Below are positions 942 through 60,501 of a DNA stretch of 64,000 nucleotides, piece after piece. The first letter of the stretch is position 1. The number at the start of each line of letters is the position of its first letter. The position numbers were made by a program, and so were the translations under genes. The stretch spans positions 68,444,300 through 68,508,299 of the forward strand of contig CM049314.1 in assembly GCA_026874595.1 (NCBI GenBank), written 5' to 3'. This DNA comes from Sipunculus nudus (Eukaryota > Annelida > Sipuncula > Golfingiida > Sipunculidae). The notes below the pieces were generated by a model that was given only the letters and a program-made list of their open reading frames with translations, did not search any database and had not been told where the DNA came from.

Positions 942-1150
942 TCAACGGTGAAAACCTAAGATGCCCACCAACAATGTCACGATAACAAGGACTTGTGAAT
1001 ATTGTATATGCGTTGCAGCGCCCCCTGGATTTTGATGCAGATTGCTGTTAGGTCGCACAGTGCTGTAGGGTGGACCTCTGTCTTTGCTTACAAACTCAAA
1101 CCCGTCGTTGTCTCCGATTTTATCCTCTGGCTCACTGGGCCTGTTGGGTT
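942..1150 (-). CDS. GPC5: Glypican terminal coding exon: C-terminal stalk and GPI-anchor signal
   Basis: Last coding exon. Its acceptor is a long T run ending TATAG at 1151. The exon begins with two bases that complete an AAA codon with the single base left by the exon at 2608-2437, then 68 codons run to TGA at 944-942. The start of the peptide is charged (SEPEDKIGDNDGFEF). Near the end come small residues PGGAAT, a short spacer HIQYSQ and the hydrophobic tail VLVIVTLLVGILGF with only HR after it. This is the layout of a GPI-transamidase signal: anchor site among the small residues, spacer, hydrophobic tail. Glypicans are GPI-anchored, so an anchor signal straight after a Ser-Gly exon is what the family predicts. 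This part of glypicans is poorly conserved, so the assignment rests on position, phase and signal architecture. Confidence 0.85.
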
Positions 1151-2608: not shown

Positions 2609-4377
2609 CTGTTTGATGACACAAGCACATTATATTGTGAATCATTATAACAATTTTCAATGTAAGGCAGCACATTATAGATATCTTATTGAAGTTGAGG
2701 ACAAAGTTGAAGTGTGGCTACAAGTGGTGTCCCAATTAATCAAATATATCCATGATTGTTCATTTTACTTCATAATAAATTAACTTTAACAGATTTTTGC
2801 ATAATCAGTCAAATAATTTTGTATACAAATATACAAGTAAGTCATTTTATCCTGAAAAAAAAATAATATATTTTTAACCTGTTAGAGATATAAGAAAGAC
2901 CACACAAAGTAGTGTACAGCTTAAAATTAACCTTGTGCAGCTGACAATTCAGATGTAAAAGTCAGACTGAATTTATTCTGTCTATATATTTCAGGTAATA
3001 ATTCAATACAGTAAATTTCACAGTCATACAGGAGGTACATAAAATAATTGATTCATAATGGATCATTGGTCATTTTTTTTGTCTTTCATCAAAAAAGTTT
3101 TTAACAACCAGATCAGACCACTAGTGGCTATCTTGTTTGACTAATAAACAATTTTACTGGCAGGTGTGGGTTTGAATCTGACAACTGCAATTATCCCAGA
3201 GTCTAAAAATAAATGTGGTAATTTACAAGATAACCCTGTTTTCTGGTGTATAATTTACTTCTCTGGGAATGGAGATGGCAGGCTGTGTGATTAGAAAAGC
3301 ATTGTGCAGATTAGCTGATTATATTGATTGGTCTTTTCCTTTACAATCAATTAAACAGGTCGAATTTGTATGTTATCAGATTTATAATATTTAATATAAA
3401 AATATATAAATATGTATTTGGACTTTTCCCAAAACAAAATTTTAATAGCTCTTCCCCAGGTGGAACCTTAAAGTCAGGGTGCGACTGATAATAAGGATGG
3501 TTCTTATGTTAGGAATTTTACAGTATATGATTATGCTTGTACATTCAAAGAAGTATATTTGTTAACATCTCAAAAATCTGTCATAAATAAGGAAGGCCAG
3601 ACACAAAGTAAGGAAAACTGGTGCAAAATCTCTTGAACCTATGTATGATTAAAAAATCTTGATCGATACAATTACAGTATGATTAATTTAATCTTTCCAT
3701 GATTTCTGGAGATGATTCCCTTAAGCAGAAGGCCATCAAATTACAAAACACCAATGTGCCTTAATGCACCAAAGTGAGTCTATCCTGAGGGTCCTTCAAA
3801 TTTGGAAAAAAAAAGAAACTAATTACTTGGAATGTTCAATCAATATATGATCATCTACTGCTTTTGTCTTGCAATCATCAAACAAGATTTAACAAATATT
3901 TCCTGGCTGACAGTGGTTTTCTCTAGTTCATGGTCTACACCTGTTCTTTTAGTTTCAATATCAGCTGACAGATGGCAGCATGTGAAAGATCAACCTAGTT
4001 TTGACTCATTTGTATATCTGTTTGCCCTAATCTGATTTTGTGTAACCCTTACAATTGTTTGTTCAAGTATGTGTCCAAGTTATGTCTATAAACAGCCTTT
4101 TTTTTGTAACCTACCCTGTAATGTCTTTGTGTTTTTAAAAAATTCCCCCTGTAATGTCTATGAGTTTATGTTTTGTTTAACTTGCCCCCGTTATGTCTAT
4201 GAGTTTATGTTTTTATAACTTGCCACCATAAAATCTATGCATTTATATTTTTGTATAACTTACCACTGTAATGTCTATGAGTTTATTTTTTGTATAACTT
4301 ACCCCTGTAATGTCTATGATTTTATATTTTTTTAACTAACCCCTGTAATGTTTGTGTGTATATTTTGTATATCTTAC
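2609..4377 (-). other. Glypican intron between linker and Ser-Gly exons (1,769 bp)
   Basis: Phase-0 intron with donor GTAAGA at 4377 and acceptor CAG at 2609. Its donor-proximal 340 bp is a minisatellite copied from the exon-intron junction (listed separately). Apart from that, 2610-4035 is AT-rich and I recognise nothing in it. A short ORF at 3832-4035 on the plus strand has no supporting signal. Confidence 0.8.
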
Positions 4378-4400
4378 CCCCGTAATGTCTATGAGTTTCT
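4040..4400 (-). repeat. Minisatellite of duplicated exon end plus 5' splice site, period 37-40 bp
   Basis: About nine tandem units, the first being the real exon-intron junction of the 4378-4504 exon. Each unit repeats the last exon bases (minus-strand AAACTCATAGACATTAC), a G run and the donor. Unit landmarks on the plus strand (GTAATGTCTATGA or variants) fall at 4382, 4345, 4307, 4268, 4228, 4190, 4151, 4118 and 4079. Donor versions in order are GTAAGA (authentic), GTTAGT, GTAAGT, GTAAGT, GCAAGT, GCAAGT, GGAATT (dead) and GTAGGT; the most distal unit has no recognisable donor. Copying exon sequence together with the splice site into the intron makes a ladder of potential decoy donors. Confidence 0.9.
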
Positions 4401-4504
4401 GTGCTAGCCTCGCCATGACATCAGTGCCTGCCCTGTGACCGCCGGCCACCTCAGGATTCTGTAACTGTTCTGTGATGTTAAACTCTGGTACTGGCTTGGT
4501 ATAA
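4378..4504 (-). CDS. GPC5: Glypican linker exon between the core domain and the Ser-Gly region
   Basis: 127-bp exon with acceptor TTGTTTCAG at 4505 and donor GTAAGA at 4377. Its first base completes a Ser codon with the two bases left by the 60248-60501 exon, giving VGSYTKP across the join, which resembles the GPC5-type sequence after the CWTG motif. The next 42 codons read through an N-glycosylation sequon (NIT) and QNPEVAGG. They then enter a helix-like stretch (MARLAQKLIDITG) matching the place where GPC3/GPC5 proteins have a conserved IIDKL-type helix. The exon ends in phase 0. If its own donor is skipped, translation runs 13 further codons (VRYTKYTHKHYRG) to a stop at 4338-4336. Identification comes from recall of family features, not a search. 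Confidence 0.88.
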
Positions 4505-35939: not shown

Positions 35940-36880
35940 ATATTGGTCCTGTGATAAGTTTGAAGCCAACCTGTCGACCAAAACTGGAGTTATCATCCAT
36001 AAACTAATTTGTAAATGGATGGGCCCTGTGACCTTAACCTTTGACCTTATGACCCAAAAATCAAAATGAAACTTCCCCTATTGGCAGGTGCACCAAGTGT
36101 TGATGATGGAAGGACTGAGATGAAAAGTTTGGCTTCAACAATATTTCTATAAAGTAGTGGGTCCTGTGACCTTGACCTTTGATCTCATGACCCCAGAATC
36201 AACAGTTCTTACTTCAGTGATGGGCCATATATAAGTCAAGTTTGAAACCAATATTTCAAACTAAATTGGTGTTATCATCTGGAAACTAATATGTGGATTG
36301 ATGGCCCCCCATGACCTTGACCTTGTGACCCCAAAATCCATCAGTTACTTCCACTATTGGCAGGTGACCAACATCTGGAAGATAGAATGTTTGGGACAGA
36401 AAGTTTGGCTAAAAATACATCAACAATTTTTTTAAAGAAGTGGGCCTTTGACCTTGACCTTTGACCGTTGGACCCCAAAATCCACACCGTTCTTACTTGA
36501 GTGGTGAGTCATATACAAGTTAAGTTTGAAACCAAAATGTCAAACTAAACTGGAGTTATCATCTGGAAACTAATTTGTGAACAGATGGCCCCTGTGACCT
36601 TGACCTTTGACCATGTGACCCCAAATTCATTTATGCTCTTCCCATACTGGCAAGTCAGCTAAATACACAAAATGGAAAGTTTGGGATGAAAAGCTTGGCT
36701 TAAAATGCAGCCATAATCTTTTAAAAAAAGGGAGTCTTGTGACCTTGACCTCTGACCTCATGACCCCAAAATCATATAGGTTCTTGCTTTAGTGGTGGGC
36801 AATATGTAAGTCAAGTTTGAAATCCATGTGTCAATACAACCTGGAGTTATCATCTGGAAACAAAATTGTGTGGGTGAATA
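35940..36880. repeat. Dimeric satellite (about 141-bp half units) rich in TGACCTTGACC motifs
   Basis: Six half units in which TGACCTTGACC or a close variant recurs near 36029, 36169, 36311, 36447, 36595 and 36740. Alternate halves carry CTATTGGCAGGTG or GTTCTTACTTCAGTGATGGGC text, so the true repeat is a ~284-bp dimer of about three copies. The recurring core resembles tandem nuclear-receptor half sites. Known as a common repeat style in molluscs; the functional meaning is only inferred. Confidence 0.8.
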
Positions 36881-50639: not shown

Positions 50640-51954
50640 AGGTTTCAAAACTCTGAATTAAAGTTTAATCAAAAAGCTTCAAGTAATCAAAATAGTGAAT
50701 CAATATGACACAATCCTGCAATATTTGTGTGTAATAGAGATGTTATCAACCTCTGAATAGTGTTTTGTGATACACCCAGAGGTGCCCGTATTAGACAGGA
50801 TCACAGGATATATATATCATATGTTTCATGACACAGCCTAAAATGTCCGTAACATAAGAACCTGAATCCATATTTCATGACATAGCTTATAGAATTTACA
50901 TAATAGAGAGGATAACTGTCTTTTGAATCCATGTTTCATGAACAGCCTATAGTGTCTGTAACATAAGAACCTGAATCCATTTTTCACGACATAGCTTATA
51001 AAATTTCCATAATAGAGAGGATAACTGTCTTTTGAATCCATGTTTCATGAACAGCCTATAGTGTACATAACATAAGAACCTGAATCCATGTTTCATGACA
51101 CAGCCTATATAGTTTCAATAATAGATAGTATAACTGCCTTTGAATCCATGTTTCAAGACACAGCCTATATAGTTTCAATAATAGAGAGGATAACCGTCTT
51201 TGAATTGATATTTCAAGACACAGAATAAAGTGTCCATAAAATAAGAACCTCTAGAAATCCATGTTTCATGACACAGCCTATAAAGTTTAATAAAAGAGAG
51301 GATAACCGCCTTTTGAATCCAATTTTTCGTGACACAGCCTAAAGTGTCTGGAACATAGGAACCTGAATCCATGTTTCATGATACAGCCTATAAAGTTTCC
51401 ATAACAGAGAGGATAACTGCCTTTTGAATTCATGTTTCATGACACAGCCTAAATTGTCTGTACCATAAGAACCTGAATCCATTGTTTTATGACAAAGCCT
51501 ATAAAGTTTCCATAATAGAGAGGATAACCGCCTTTTGAATCCAATTTTTCATGACACAGCCTAAAGTGTCTGGAACATAGGAACCTGAATCCATGTTTCA
51601 TATCACAGCCTATAAAGTTTCCATATCAGAGAGGATAATTAACTGCCTTTTGAATCAATGTTTCATGACACAATCTAAATTGTCTGTAACATAAATATCC
51701 ATGTTTCATGACACAGCCTATAACCTTTCCATACATGAGAGGATAACGGCCTTTTGAATCCAATTTTTCATGACACAGCCTAACGTGTCTGAAACATAGG
51801 AACCTGAATCCATGTTTCCTGACACAGCCTTTATTGTTTCAATAATAGAGAGGATAACTGCCTTTTGAATCCATGTTTCATGACACAGCAAAGTGTCTGC
51901 AATCATAAGAGAGGTTATCAACCTCTGTTTCAATGTTTCACATAACACATTTTC

Positions 51955-52192
51955 AGGCCTGGATAGCTGAGTGGTAAAATGCTTGGCCCTCTCTGCTGGC
52001 AACCAGGGTTCCATACCCAGTGTGGCTAATGGCTATGAGAGTGAATTGTAGTGGCTCATGAAAGGTTGGTGGCTTCCTCCGAGTCCCCTGGTTTCCAACT
52101 ACCAAATGCCAACATCCTAGCCATAGAGAATGCCTCATCTTAGTTATTATAACTAGTTGTACAATCCATGTTAATAAATAAAGTTTATTTTT
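51955..52192 (+). mobile_element. tRNA-derived SINE, second family
   Basis: The head GCCTGGATAGCTGAGTGGTA has the A-box TAGCTGAGTGG, then a B-box-like GGTTCCATACC about 40 bp later, both expected of a tRNA-type RNA polymerase III promoter. A ~150-bp body and a tail AATAAATAAAG plus T run follow. The flanking word CATTTTC occurs on both sides and may be part of the target-site duplication. It lies inside the 110/111-bp satellite, so it inserted after that array formed. Confidence 0.8.
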
Positions 52193-52344
52193 TTTACACC
52201 CTCATTTTCCATAATAGAGGGGTTGAGATCCTTGGAAACAATGTTTAAAAGTTGTACAATCCATGTTAATAAATAAAGTTTATTTTTTTTACACCCTCAT
52301 TTTCCATAATAGAGGGGTTGAGATCCTTGGAAACAATGTTTCAC
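52155..52344. repeat. Perfect tandem duplication, period 95 bp
   Basis: The SINE tail plus following satellite (starting AGTTGTACAATCCATG) is present twice in direct tandem, at 52155 and 52250, identical over at least 92 bp including an eight-T run. It is very recent or an assembly artefact. Confidence 0.9.
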
Positions 52345-56123: not shown

Positions 56124-57988
56124 ACAAGTGACCCATGGGTCATGACGCTCAGCTGACTGGGAAGAGATTTGCAAAAGGAAATTTTATCACCTGAATGGTA
56201 GTATATAACAATTCAACTGAAGCATCAAACAGATTAAACAACAGGCTGAAATTGTGTCTGTATTAATATATCTCAAAAATAGAGAAAAAATGTTTAAACT
56301 TTAAAAAAAAATACAGGTGGCTCCACCAGTCTGCAGAAACTAATAAAAACACTTAATGGTCAATATCCATGCAAAGAAGCATGGTGGTCTCTGGATTTGT
56401 TGTTCAGATACTTCAGCTTTTGTATCAAATTTTCCATTATTCTGAGGGATACTTTTGAGTTCTATAGCTTGAAGGATATGGGTAACAGAGACCTAATTTC
56501 AGGTTTCAACAGACACTTTTCATGGGCCTCTTGCATGACAAGAATGAAGATTCTAGGTCCAGTTGTTACAATTTGTACCCTGTTGACAGATGTCCACATC
56601 TTTAAAGGTCTCAAAAATAGAGAAAATAATTAGTAAAAATTTGAAAAAAAATAGAGTTGGCACACACAGTCTGCTAAAACTGATGGAACATGTCATGATC
56701 ATTATGTATGCCAAAAATCATGAGCATCAGTGTTGTAGTTATTGAGATACTTGAGTTTTTGTATCAAATTTTTCATTATTCTGGGGGGTATTTTGGAGCC
56801 ATACAGCTTAATGGATATGGGTAACAGAGACCTAATTTCAGGTTTCAATGGAGACTTTTCATAGGTCTCCCTGTGTGTCAAGAATGAAGATTCTAGGTCC
56901 AATTTGAACCCTATTGACAGATAACTACATCCTTTACAGTCTCAAAAATAGAGGAAAAAATTGTAAAAATTTGAAAAATACAGGTGGAGCCACCAGTCTG
57001 CAGAATCTTATGAAACATCTCATATGTATGCCAAAAATCATGACTATCAGTGATGTAGTTAATCAGATATTGAAGTTTGTTTATAAAATTTTTGACTATT
57101 CTGGGTGGTACTTTGGGGTCCCTTAGCTTGAAGGATATGGGTAACAGAGACCTAATTTCTGGTTTCCATGGGCACTTTTCATAGGTCTCTCAGAATATCA
57201 AGAATGAAGATTCTAGGTCCAGTCTTTACGATTTGTGCCCTGTTAACAGATGTTCACATTTTTAAAGGTCTCAAAAATAGAGAAAACAATTTGTAAAAAA
57301 TCGAAAAATACAGGTGGTGCCACCAGTCTGCAGAAACTGATGAAACATCTCATGATCAATATGTATGCCAAAAATCATGACCATCAGTGATGTAGTTAAT
57401 GAGATATTGAAGTTTTTGTATGAAATTTTTCACTATTCTGGGGGGTACTTTGGGGCCCCAAAGCTTGAAGGATATGGGTTACAGAGACCTAATTTCTGGT
57501 TTCCATGGAGATTTTTTATAGGTCTCTTAGAATGTCAAGAATGAAGATTCTAGGTCCAGTCTTTACGATTTGTGCCCTGTTAACAGATGTCCACATTTTT
57601 AAAGGTCTCAAAAATAGAGAAAAAAATTCGTAAAAAATAAAAAAATATAGGTGGCGCCACCAGTCTGCAGGAACTGATGGAACATCTCATGATCAATATG
57701 TATGCCAAAAATCATGACCATCAGTGATGTAGTTAATGAGATATTGAAGTTTTTGTATGAAATTTTTGACTATTCTGGGGGGGGGGGGGTACTTTAGCTC
57801 GAAGGAGACCTAATTCCAGGTTTCCAAGGAGATTTTGCATGGACCATTCTGGATGTAAAGTAAGAATATTCCAGGTCCAGCGGTTATGATTTGTGCCTTG
57901 TTAACGGACAGACGGCCGGATGGCCGGACGGATGATGGACAAAGAGTAATCGCTATAGCTCACATGACTTACAGTCAGCTGAGCTAAA
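56124..57988 (+). mobile_element. Full-length HINE/pearl-like element with about 4.5 internal repeats
   Basis: The left end is AAGTGACCCATGGGTCATGA followed by CGCTCAGCTGA, containing the 14-bp palindrome TGACCCATGGGTCA. The right end has a CCGGATGGCCGGACGGATG run, the GACTTACAGTC hairpin with CAGCTG flank, and AGCTAAAAA at about 57988. Inside, TTCTAGGTCCA landmarks at 56549, 56890, 57212, 57550 and 57867 define direct units of about 317-341 bp, each with GGTGG(C/T)(G/A)CCACC-like and GGGGGGTACTTT phrases. Internal tandem repeats between conserved ends are typical of bivalve pearl elements. Non-coding; mobilised, if at all, by an autonomous Helitron relative. Confidence 0.75.
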
Positions 57989-58369: not shown

Positions 58370-59550
58370 AATACGGGTAGTCGACAAGCGACTACGTGTA
58401 TCCGCCTAAATCAGAGTGGAACAGGTGAAGTGAGGCATGGATTGTGTGGCAAGGGGAAATAGAGTGAAGTGTTGCATATTAGCATGGATGTCTGCAGCCA
58501 AATTGTGTATGTAGGTTGCGCCACCTACCACAAAAACCAGAAAGCCGTCCAAGTTGAATACATATGCAAAATTTAAGGCAGATAGATCAAACCAATACAT
58601 GTATATGAGTGATTTTAGCCCACGACATACAAAGAGATGGACGCTGTGCAAAAATGGTTGCAGGTGACGCCACCAGTTTTGCGTATGATAAAGAGCTATG
58701 AGAGAACTATAAACATGCAAAACTTTGGCCCAATCGGTCAAACGGTTCCCAAGATATGAGCTTGGATGTCTGCTGCATAAACTAGAATGTAGGTGGCGCC
58801 ACCTGTCATAAAATCGAAAAAGCTATCCAGGATGTATAAACCTGCAAAATATTTAGCAGATATGTCAAACCACTGCCGAGATATGAGTGATTTTATCCCA
58901 TGGCAGACAAACAGACAGACGCTGTGCAAAAGTGGTTGCAGGTGGCGCCACCATTTTTAGTGTATTTTATAAATTAGCTATCCAAGGGCTACATTTGTAT
59001 AAAATTTTTAGCCTGATCAGTCAAACGGTTTCCAAGATATGAGCTTGGATGTCTGCAGCATAAACATGAATGTAGGTGGCGCCACCTGTCATAAAATCAG
59101 AAAAGCTATCCAGGATGTATACGCATGCCGAATTTCAGGTGAATAAGTCCAACCAATGCAGAGATATGACTGATTTTATCCCAAGGCAGATGAACAGATG
59201 GACACTGTTCAAAAATGGTTGCAGGTGGCGCCACCATTTTTTGTGTATGTTATAAAGCTATCGAAGGGCTACATTTGTGTAAAATTTTTAGCCTGATCGG
59301 TCAAACGGTTCCCAAGATATGTGGGTTTATGTGTGGAAACAGACGCACAAACGGACGCAGTGTGCAGAGGAAAGGTCAGAGGTCAAAACAAAATCAGGGC
59401 GCAGCAGTTCACATGTGACCCAAACATAATCCCGAGTTTTGTAAAATTCCGCCCAGCGGTTACGGAGGAGTTCTCCGGACACCAACGCTGCCGCCGCGGC
59501 CAGCTGAAAACATAGTATCCGCAAAACTCTGTTTTGGCGGATACAATGAT
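58370..59550. mobile_element. Repeat-bearing non-autonomous element with GGTGGCGCCACC core
   Basis: The edges carry inverted GTATCCGCC (58398-58406) and GGCGGATAC (59536-59544). There are local hairpins at both ends: GTAGTCG/CGACTAC around ACAAG at 58377-58395, and GTATCCGC/GCGGATAC at 59515-59544. The interior is a ~280-bp dimeric tandem repeat in which the palindrome GGTGGCGCCACC or a close variant recurs near 58512, 58662, 58791, 58938, 59074 and 59219, together with GGTCAAACGGTT(C/T)CCAAGATATG. The right part (59400-59510) is GC-rich. The class is uncertain; a Helitron-like or foldback origin is possible. Confidence 0.6.
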
Positions 59551-60247: not shown

Positions 60248-60501
60248 CTCCCGACTTTTTCACCAGTCCAGCACTGTTCTTTGTGGGATTTGAACTTGGC
60301 ACTTTTGCACATCTGGTCAGCCAGTTGGCTAAAGAAACTGCGTGACTTTTTGAGAGTTGTTAAGAACTCCTTCAGGTTTTTACTCAACGTGGTGTTAACT
60401 TTGGCAATGTTCATGTATTTCACCGATGTCTCCAGCTGGGCTGCATCTCTCGTCGTCTGTTTTAGCTGTGATGTTTTAGGATGACCACATCTTGTTACAA
60501 C
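60248..60501 (-). CDS. GPC5: Glypican exon: C-terminal part of the Cys-rich core domain
   Basis: 254-bp exon with acceptor ATATTTGCAG at 60502 and donor GTAAGT at 60247. It begins in phase 0 and ends in phase 2. The 84-residue peptide starts VVTRCGHPK, matching the conserved glypican segment where a Cys-Gly(-Cys) and Pro-Lys follow the long helices. It then has the NTT glycosylation sequon, a helix-like KNLKEFLTTLKKSRSFFSQL, a Cys in QMCKS, and QCWTGEKVG, the conserved Cys-Trp motif; CWTG rather than CWNG favours the GPC5-like side. The order of RCG, the L-x-x-L-K-K-S-R-x-F-F helix, MC and CW fits glypicans of the GPC3/5 (dally) branch. These Cys normally form core disulfides. The protein acts at the cell surface as a heparan-sulfate co-receptor for morphogens such as Wnt, Hh, BMP and FGF (family knowledge). 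Confidence 0.93.

Follow-up and report, generated by a model that had tools for sequence, protein, structure and literature searches.

A tandem array built on the 5' splice site of a predicted glypican exon, of the kind described as mirages in amphioxus genes

Boundary minisatellites in known genes

Minisatellite-like tandem duplications that extend across an exon/intron boundary have been described in cephalochordates, where they are called mirages (PMC3087553). Their units are 10-72 bp long in Adh3 (Canestro 2002, as reported in the citing paper, PMC3087553), and splice signals are retained in many units but not in all of them (PMC3087553). The number of units can vary between haplotypes, e.g., BflGb6 has six in one and three in the other (PMC3087553). 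The Adh3 data and the RT-PCR of globins are reported to suggest that mirages leave splicing undisturbed, and boundary minisatellites have been proposed as a route to new introns (PMC3087553). The lancelet PGBD5 also has boundary repeats, and the paper describing them cites troponin C (PMC3902484).

Here, we describe an array in a predicted glypican gene, found in a stretch of DNA of 64 kb (the window). By its structure, it is of this known kind, i.e., a mirage, and it is probably of little harm to splicing. A limited literature search on glypican intron minisatellites returned no prior description of this array, and among the matches listed there was no closer precedent than PMC3087553, PMC3902484 and PMC2812944. 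In the parts of the sources available, an intronic minisatellite of abalone (PMC6905558) is not described as spanning an exon boundary, and no such span is described for the intron repeats of an earthworm metallothionein (PMC12783039).

The predicted gene and its repeated exon boundary

The gene is encoded on the minus strand, and four of its exons were delimited as follows.

60248 to 60501, minus strand: upstream glypican exon A, from the PF01153 match of its open reading frame, with predicted boundaries read off the sequence.
4378 to 4504, minus strand: glypican linker exon B, 127 bp, predicted from splice signals and phase.
2437 to 2608 (alternative start 2602), minus strand: exon C, with an SGSGSGSG motif resembling glycosaminoglycan-attachment sites, from the open reading frame and its frame.
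943 to 1150, minus strand: predicted coding exon D, with a C-terminal hydrophobic tail, from the open reading frame and its frame.

Ten open reading frames were submitted to Pfam, and the one spanning 60501-60248 was the only glypican match (PF01153, E 6e-11, 42.3 bits); those of exons B, C and D, taken singly, gave no Pfam match (for exon B, at E up to 0.1). Exon A ends in ...CWTGEKVG/S with the donor AG/GTAAGT (in donors, the slash marks the exon end). Exon B has the acceptor TTTCAG, the donor GTAAGA, phases compatible with exons A and C, and a 3' end reading ATT ACG GGG. The four exons can be spliced in silico into one open frame that has no stop when the authentic donor is used with either acceptor of exon C (the stop codon of exon D was excluded from this frame test), and the joined protein contains NPEV, the SGSGSGSG stretch and the hydrophobic tail. 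We infer that exon D is the final coding exon and that its tail is GPI-signal-like. The two candidate acceptors of exon C, six bases apart in a repeated AAACAG (2603-2614), lead to KQKRER or KRER and give nearly the same Pfam score (71.7 versus 71.0 bits).

Membership in the glypican family is indicated by the joined exons A-B-C, which score 71.0 bits against PF01153, above the curated cut-off of 26.4. Residues 1-169 align with positions 328-493 of the profile, and this alignment spans the exon B/C junction. Nine sequences of solved structures matched at E up to 0.1, and all nine are glypicans (best Glypican-2, E 0.0017); two of them, both Glypican-1, cover the B/C junction, and the other seven end before the repeated stretch described below. 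When the linker region was searched by itself, two unrelated proteins and a single weak match to Glypican-2 (E 0.51) were returned; this match ends before KLIDITG, the last seven residues encoded by exon B.

The array extends on the minus strand from 4398, inside exon B, to about 4053 in the intron. The scores given below for its donors come from a PWM of approximate human frequencies, used in place of the MaxEntScan scoring proposed originally, and from duplexes with the U1 5' end computed with ViennaRNA.

4362 to 4398, minus strand: unit 1, the final 21 bases of exon B and 16 intron bases, with the predicted authentic donor GTAAGA (G at 4377).
4324 to 4361, minus strand: unit 2, with the weak donor GTTAGT (G at 4340) and an in-frame TAG reached from donors further down.
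4285 to 4323, minus strand: unit 3, decoy donor GGG/GTAAGT (G at 4302; PWM 9.53, U1 duplex -10.3).
4245 to 4284, minus strand: unit 4, decoy donor GTG/GTAAGT (G at 4263; PWM 9.85, U1 duplex -9.1).
4207 to 4244, minus strand: unit 5, GC donor GTG/GCAAGT (G at 4223).
4168 to 4206, minus strand: unit 6, GC donor GGG/GCAAGT (G at 4185).
4136 to 4167, minus strand: unit 7, short, exonic part 21/21, broken donor.
4092 to 4135, minus strand: unit 8, donor AGG/GTAGGT (G at 4114; PWM 7.76, U1 duplex -9.7).
4053 to 4091, minus strand: unit 9, degenerate and doubtful, without a donor (13/17 exonic columns).

The original prediction of about nine units of 37-40 bp, each made of the exon end and a donor, is confirmed with corrections. 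Eight units are clear and the ninth is doubtful. The donor-anchored spacings are 37, 38, 39, 40, 38, 39, 32 and 44 bp (the anchor of unit 9 was placed by hand), and the exon-end part recurs throughout, with donors missing from unit 7 and from the doubtful unit 9. TRF independently reported a period of 39 with 6.6 copies at 4146-4398, and also a period of 75 with 3.1 copies.

The claim that the end of exon B is itself a unit stood. Unit 1 matches the consensus of units 2-8 at 20/21 exonic and 13/16 intronic positions, and the exonic parts of units 1 to 9 match this consensus at 20/21, 17/21, 20/21, 20/21, 14/21, 19/21, 21/21, 18/20 and 13/17 positions, respectively. When the exon 21-mer was shuffled 2000 times, keeping its composition, and compared with 388 intron bases, the best match was 16/21. 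For exons A and C, the other two with an intron downstream, the exon end matches its own intron at no more than 12/21 and 13/21 positions, respectively. Seven exon boundaries were compared with the window, and tandem repetition was found solely at the donor boundary of exon B; the other matches were of 15 bp for the exon A donor region and of 19 bp for part of the array (at 871-889), both with E 0.006. The idea that a repeat merely landed beside the exon can be ruled out, given the match of 20/21 and the fact that none of the 2000 shuffles exceeded 16. Identity between pairs of units 1-8 ranges from 63% to 89%, and for units 2-8 it averages 79% in exonic and 71% in intronic columns.

The window contains other repeats. 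A tandem array of ~290-bp units lies at 35956-36870 and includes TGACCTTGACCTTTGACC words, with exact copies at 36449 and 36595. Two arrays with units of ~337 and ~283 bp (56271-57782 and 58476-59321) contain all five copies of the palindrome GGTGGCGCCACC present in the window (57650, 58792, 58941, 59075 and 59224). There is also a complex array with nested periods of ~50-60, 110 and 219 bp (50821-51910), and a 95-bp tandem duplication at 52155-52341 which, because its copies match at 100%, is either recent or an assembly artefact. The TGACCTTGACC-rich repeats of the window are reminiscent of mollusc genomes.

Origin of the array

We consider it likely that the array is a mostly neutral, mirage-type minisatellite seeded from the 5' splice site boundary of exon B. 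A stretch of ~38 bp straddling this site would have been duplicated in tandem, probably by slippage or unequal exchange at the short A-rich homologies at both ends of the unit, and the array would then have grown to eight or nine units within the intron. The A-rich edges suggest slippage. Unit 1 would have been kept by coding and splicing constraints, leaving the intronic units to drift. The original prediction left open whether the array was seeded from coding sequence or had co-evolved with it, and seeding is the likelier origin because the intronic consensus, read by eye, still encodes KLIDITG, because the single exonic difference of unit 1 (ACG instead of ACA, both Thr by eye) is synonymous, at a third position, and because the alignment to the glypican profile crosses the junction. 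The residue-level test of this direction is weak. The score of A-B-C against PF01153 falls from 71.0 bits to 67.5 when KLIDITG is deleted and to 66.4 when it is masked with X (losses of 3.5 and 4.6), and all eight permutations of KLIDITG score below 71.0, by a small margin for the best of them (67.1-70.7). These scores weakly favour the view that the exon end predates the array. When the eight units are ranked by their mean identity to one another, unit 1 comes third; it is thus not outstanding as a master copy, which neither proves nor excludes its role as the source.

The reverse order, with a minisatellite present first in the intron and an exon later extended into it, would make the last seven codons of exon B repeat-derived. 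It could account for the authentic donor sitting inside the repeat, for the T found at donor position +6 in all seven units 2-8 where unit 1 has A, and for the seven of nine solved glypicans whose matches stop short of the repeated stretch. The 3.5-4.6 bits that KLIDITG adds to the profile match and the preserved frame with a sole, synonymous difference argue modestly against it, and we regard this order as unlikely.

Donor strength and the consequences of decoy use

The authentic donor (4377, GGG/GTAAGA) has a PWM score of 7.91 and a U1 duplex energy of -9.2. Donors of units 2-8 are GT in four of seven cases (units 2, 3, 4 and 8), GC in two (5 and 6) and broken in one (7). The weak donor of unit 2 (4340, GGG/GTTAGT) has 5.28 and -6.4, and a GT site at 4052 (ATT/GTAAGG), outside the clear units, has 5.96 and -4.8. 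Two GTAAGT decoys had been expected at about 4307 and 4268 and to be better than the genuine site. The G of the donor lies at 4302 in one and at 4263 in the other, and their advantage depends on the measure: both exceed the authentic donor by the approximate PWM, whereas by U1 duplex energy it is beaten by 4302 and 4114 and about tied, not bettered, by 4263. It is plausible that decoys outscoring the authentic donor by PWM make splicing noisy; competition for U1 snRNP and length-polymorphic splicing, also suggested originally, are hypothetical. Among the intronic units, donor position +2 is substituted in three of seven (C, C and G) and is one of the more variable columns (4377-4092); T at +6 is uniform in these seven, against A in the authentic donor. 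The units are too few to claim selection against decoys.

Use of the decoys at 4302 and 4263 would lengthen exon B by 75 and 114 bp, to 202 and 241 bp. Both extensions are multiples of three, and the extended frame nevertheless hits the TAG of unit 2. The six GT or GC decoys (units 2-6 and 8; the 4052 site was left out), combined with the two acceptors of exon C, gave a premature stop in all 12 combinations, 146-396 nt before the C/D junction and ahead of the glycosaminoglycan motif and the tail. Under the distance rule commonly applied to nonsense-mediated decay, transcripts whose stop lies far enough upstream of the last junction are degraded. Given these distances, decay is predicted for the decoy transcripts if exon D is the last one, and any decoy product that survived would lack the attachment motif and the tail. 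Under the seeding scenario, the authentic donor would most likely still be used in most transcripts, and the array would for the most part be a by-product, either neutral or of slight cost, whose decoys, when used, yield transcripts with premature stops.

The decoys could instead be functional, with the U1 sites at 4302 and 4263 diverting a regulated share of splicing to stop-containing transcripts; the result would be less glypican, or a core that is secreted and has neither heparan sulphate sites nor an anchor. Their scores relative to the authentic donor (PWM 9.53 and 9.85 versus 7.91; duplexes -10.3 and -9.1 versus -9.2), the in-frame TAG within the extended exons, and the fact that two of only 18 GT sites with PWM of at least 9 on the minus strand of the 64-kb window lie in the array are all consistent with this. 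Against it, the cited mirages are reported with normal splicing, and in the predicted RNA structure the authentic site (mean unpaired 0.51-0.53) is slightly more open than either 4302 or 4263 (0.38-0.40). We regard a regulated role as improbable. Even less probable is that a mirage outside the cephalochordates, with decoys stronger than the genuine donor, acts as a length-variable switch in which the number of units sets the share of transcripts that decay or encode a glypican devoid of anchor and heparan sulphate. The suggestion that spare donors buffer donor mutations is hardly credible, and for the haplotype at hand largely refuted, because, even with a GT or GC donor kept in six of the seven intronic units, all 12 decoy/acceptor combinations stop prematurely and none gives the full protein.

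We make no claim that folding hides the decoys and lets the authentic donor win, since the differences in openness are small and 4185, with its GC donor, exceeds the authentic site in openness (0.62-0.63). Between 4377 and 3990 there is one AATAAA poly(A) signal (4287) and no ATTAAA.

Relation to amphioxus mirages and other arrays

The array offers a natural experiment on the choice that the spliceosome makes among near-identical 5' splice sites, some of which outscore the real one. If the host is not a lancelet, this structure would not be peculiar to cephalochordates. As in the mirages of amphioxus Adh3, BflGb6 and BflGb9, the true boundary is one unit of a tandem array that spans it, and splice signals are found in many units but not all (here four GT, two GC and one broken). 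The unit of ~38 bp falls inside the 10-72 bp range given for Adh3. In contrast to the amphioxus Adh3 and globin mirages, the host gene here is a glypican; the units are also less alike (63-89% identity for units 1-8, versus 81-100% in BflGb6). The glypican units were read from one haplotype. The imperfect tandem repeats of the lancelet gene PGBD5 similarly coincide with or overlap splice sites, but their units are longer and, in the cited scaffold, fewer (two of 60 bp and three of 108 bp; 7 and 6 units in another assembly; PMC3902484). The variable internal tandem repeats of human segmental duplications (PMC2812944) are comparable in unit length (~30 bp on average) and in that some lie at exon-intron boundaries. 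They alter the exon/intron structure among paralogues, whereas the glypican array appears to lie inside an existing intron.
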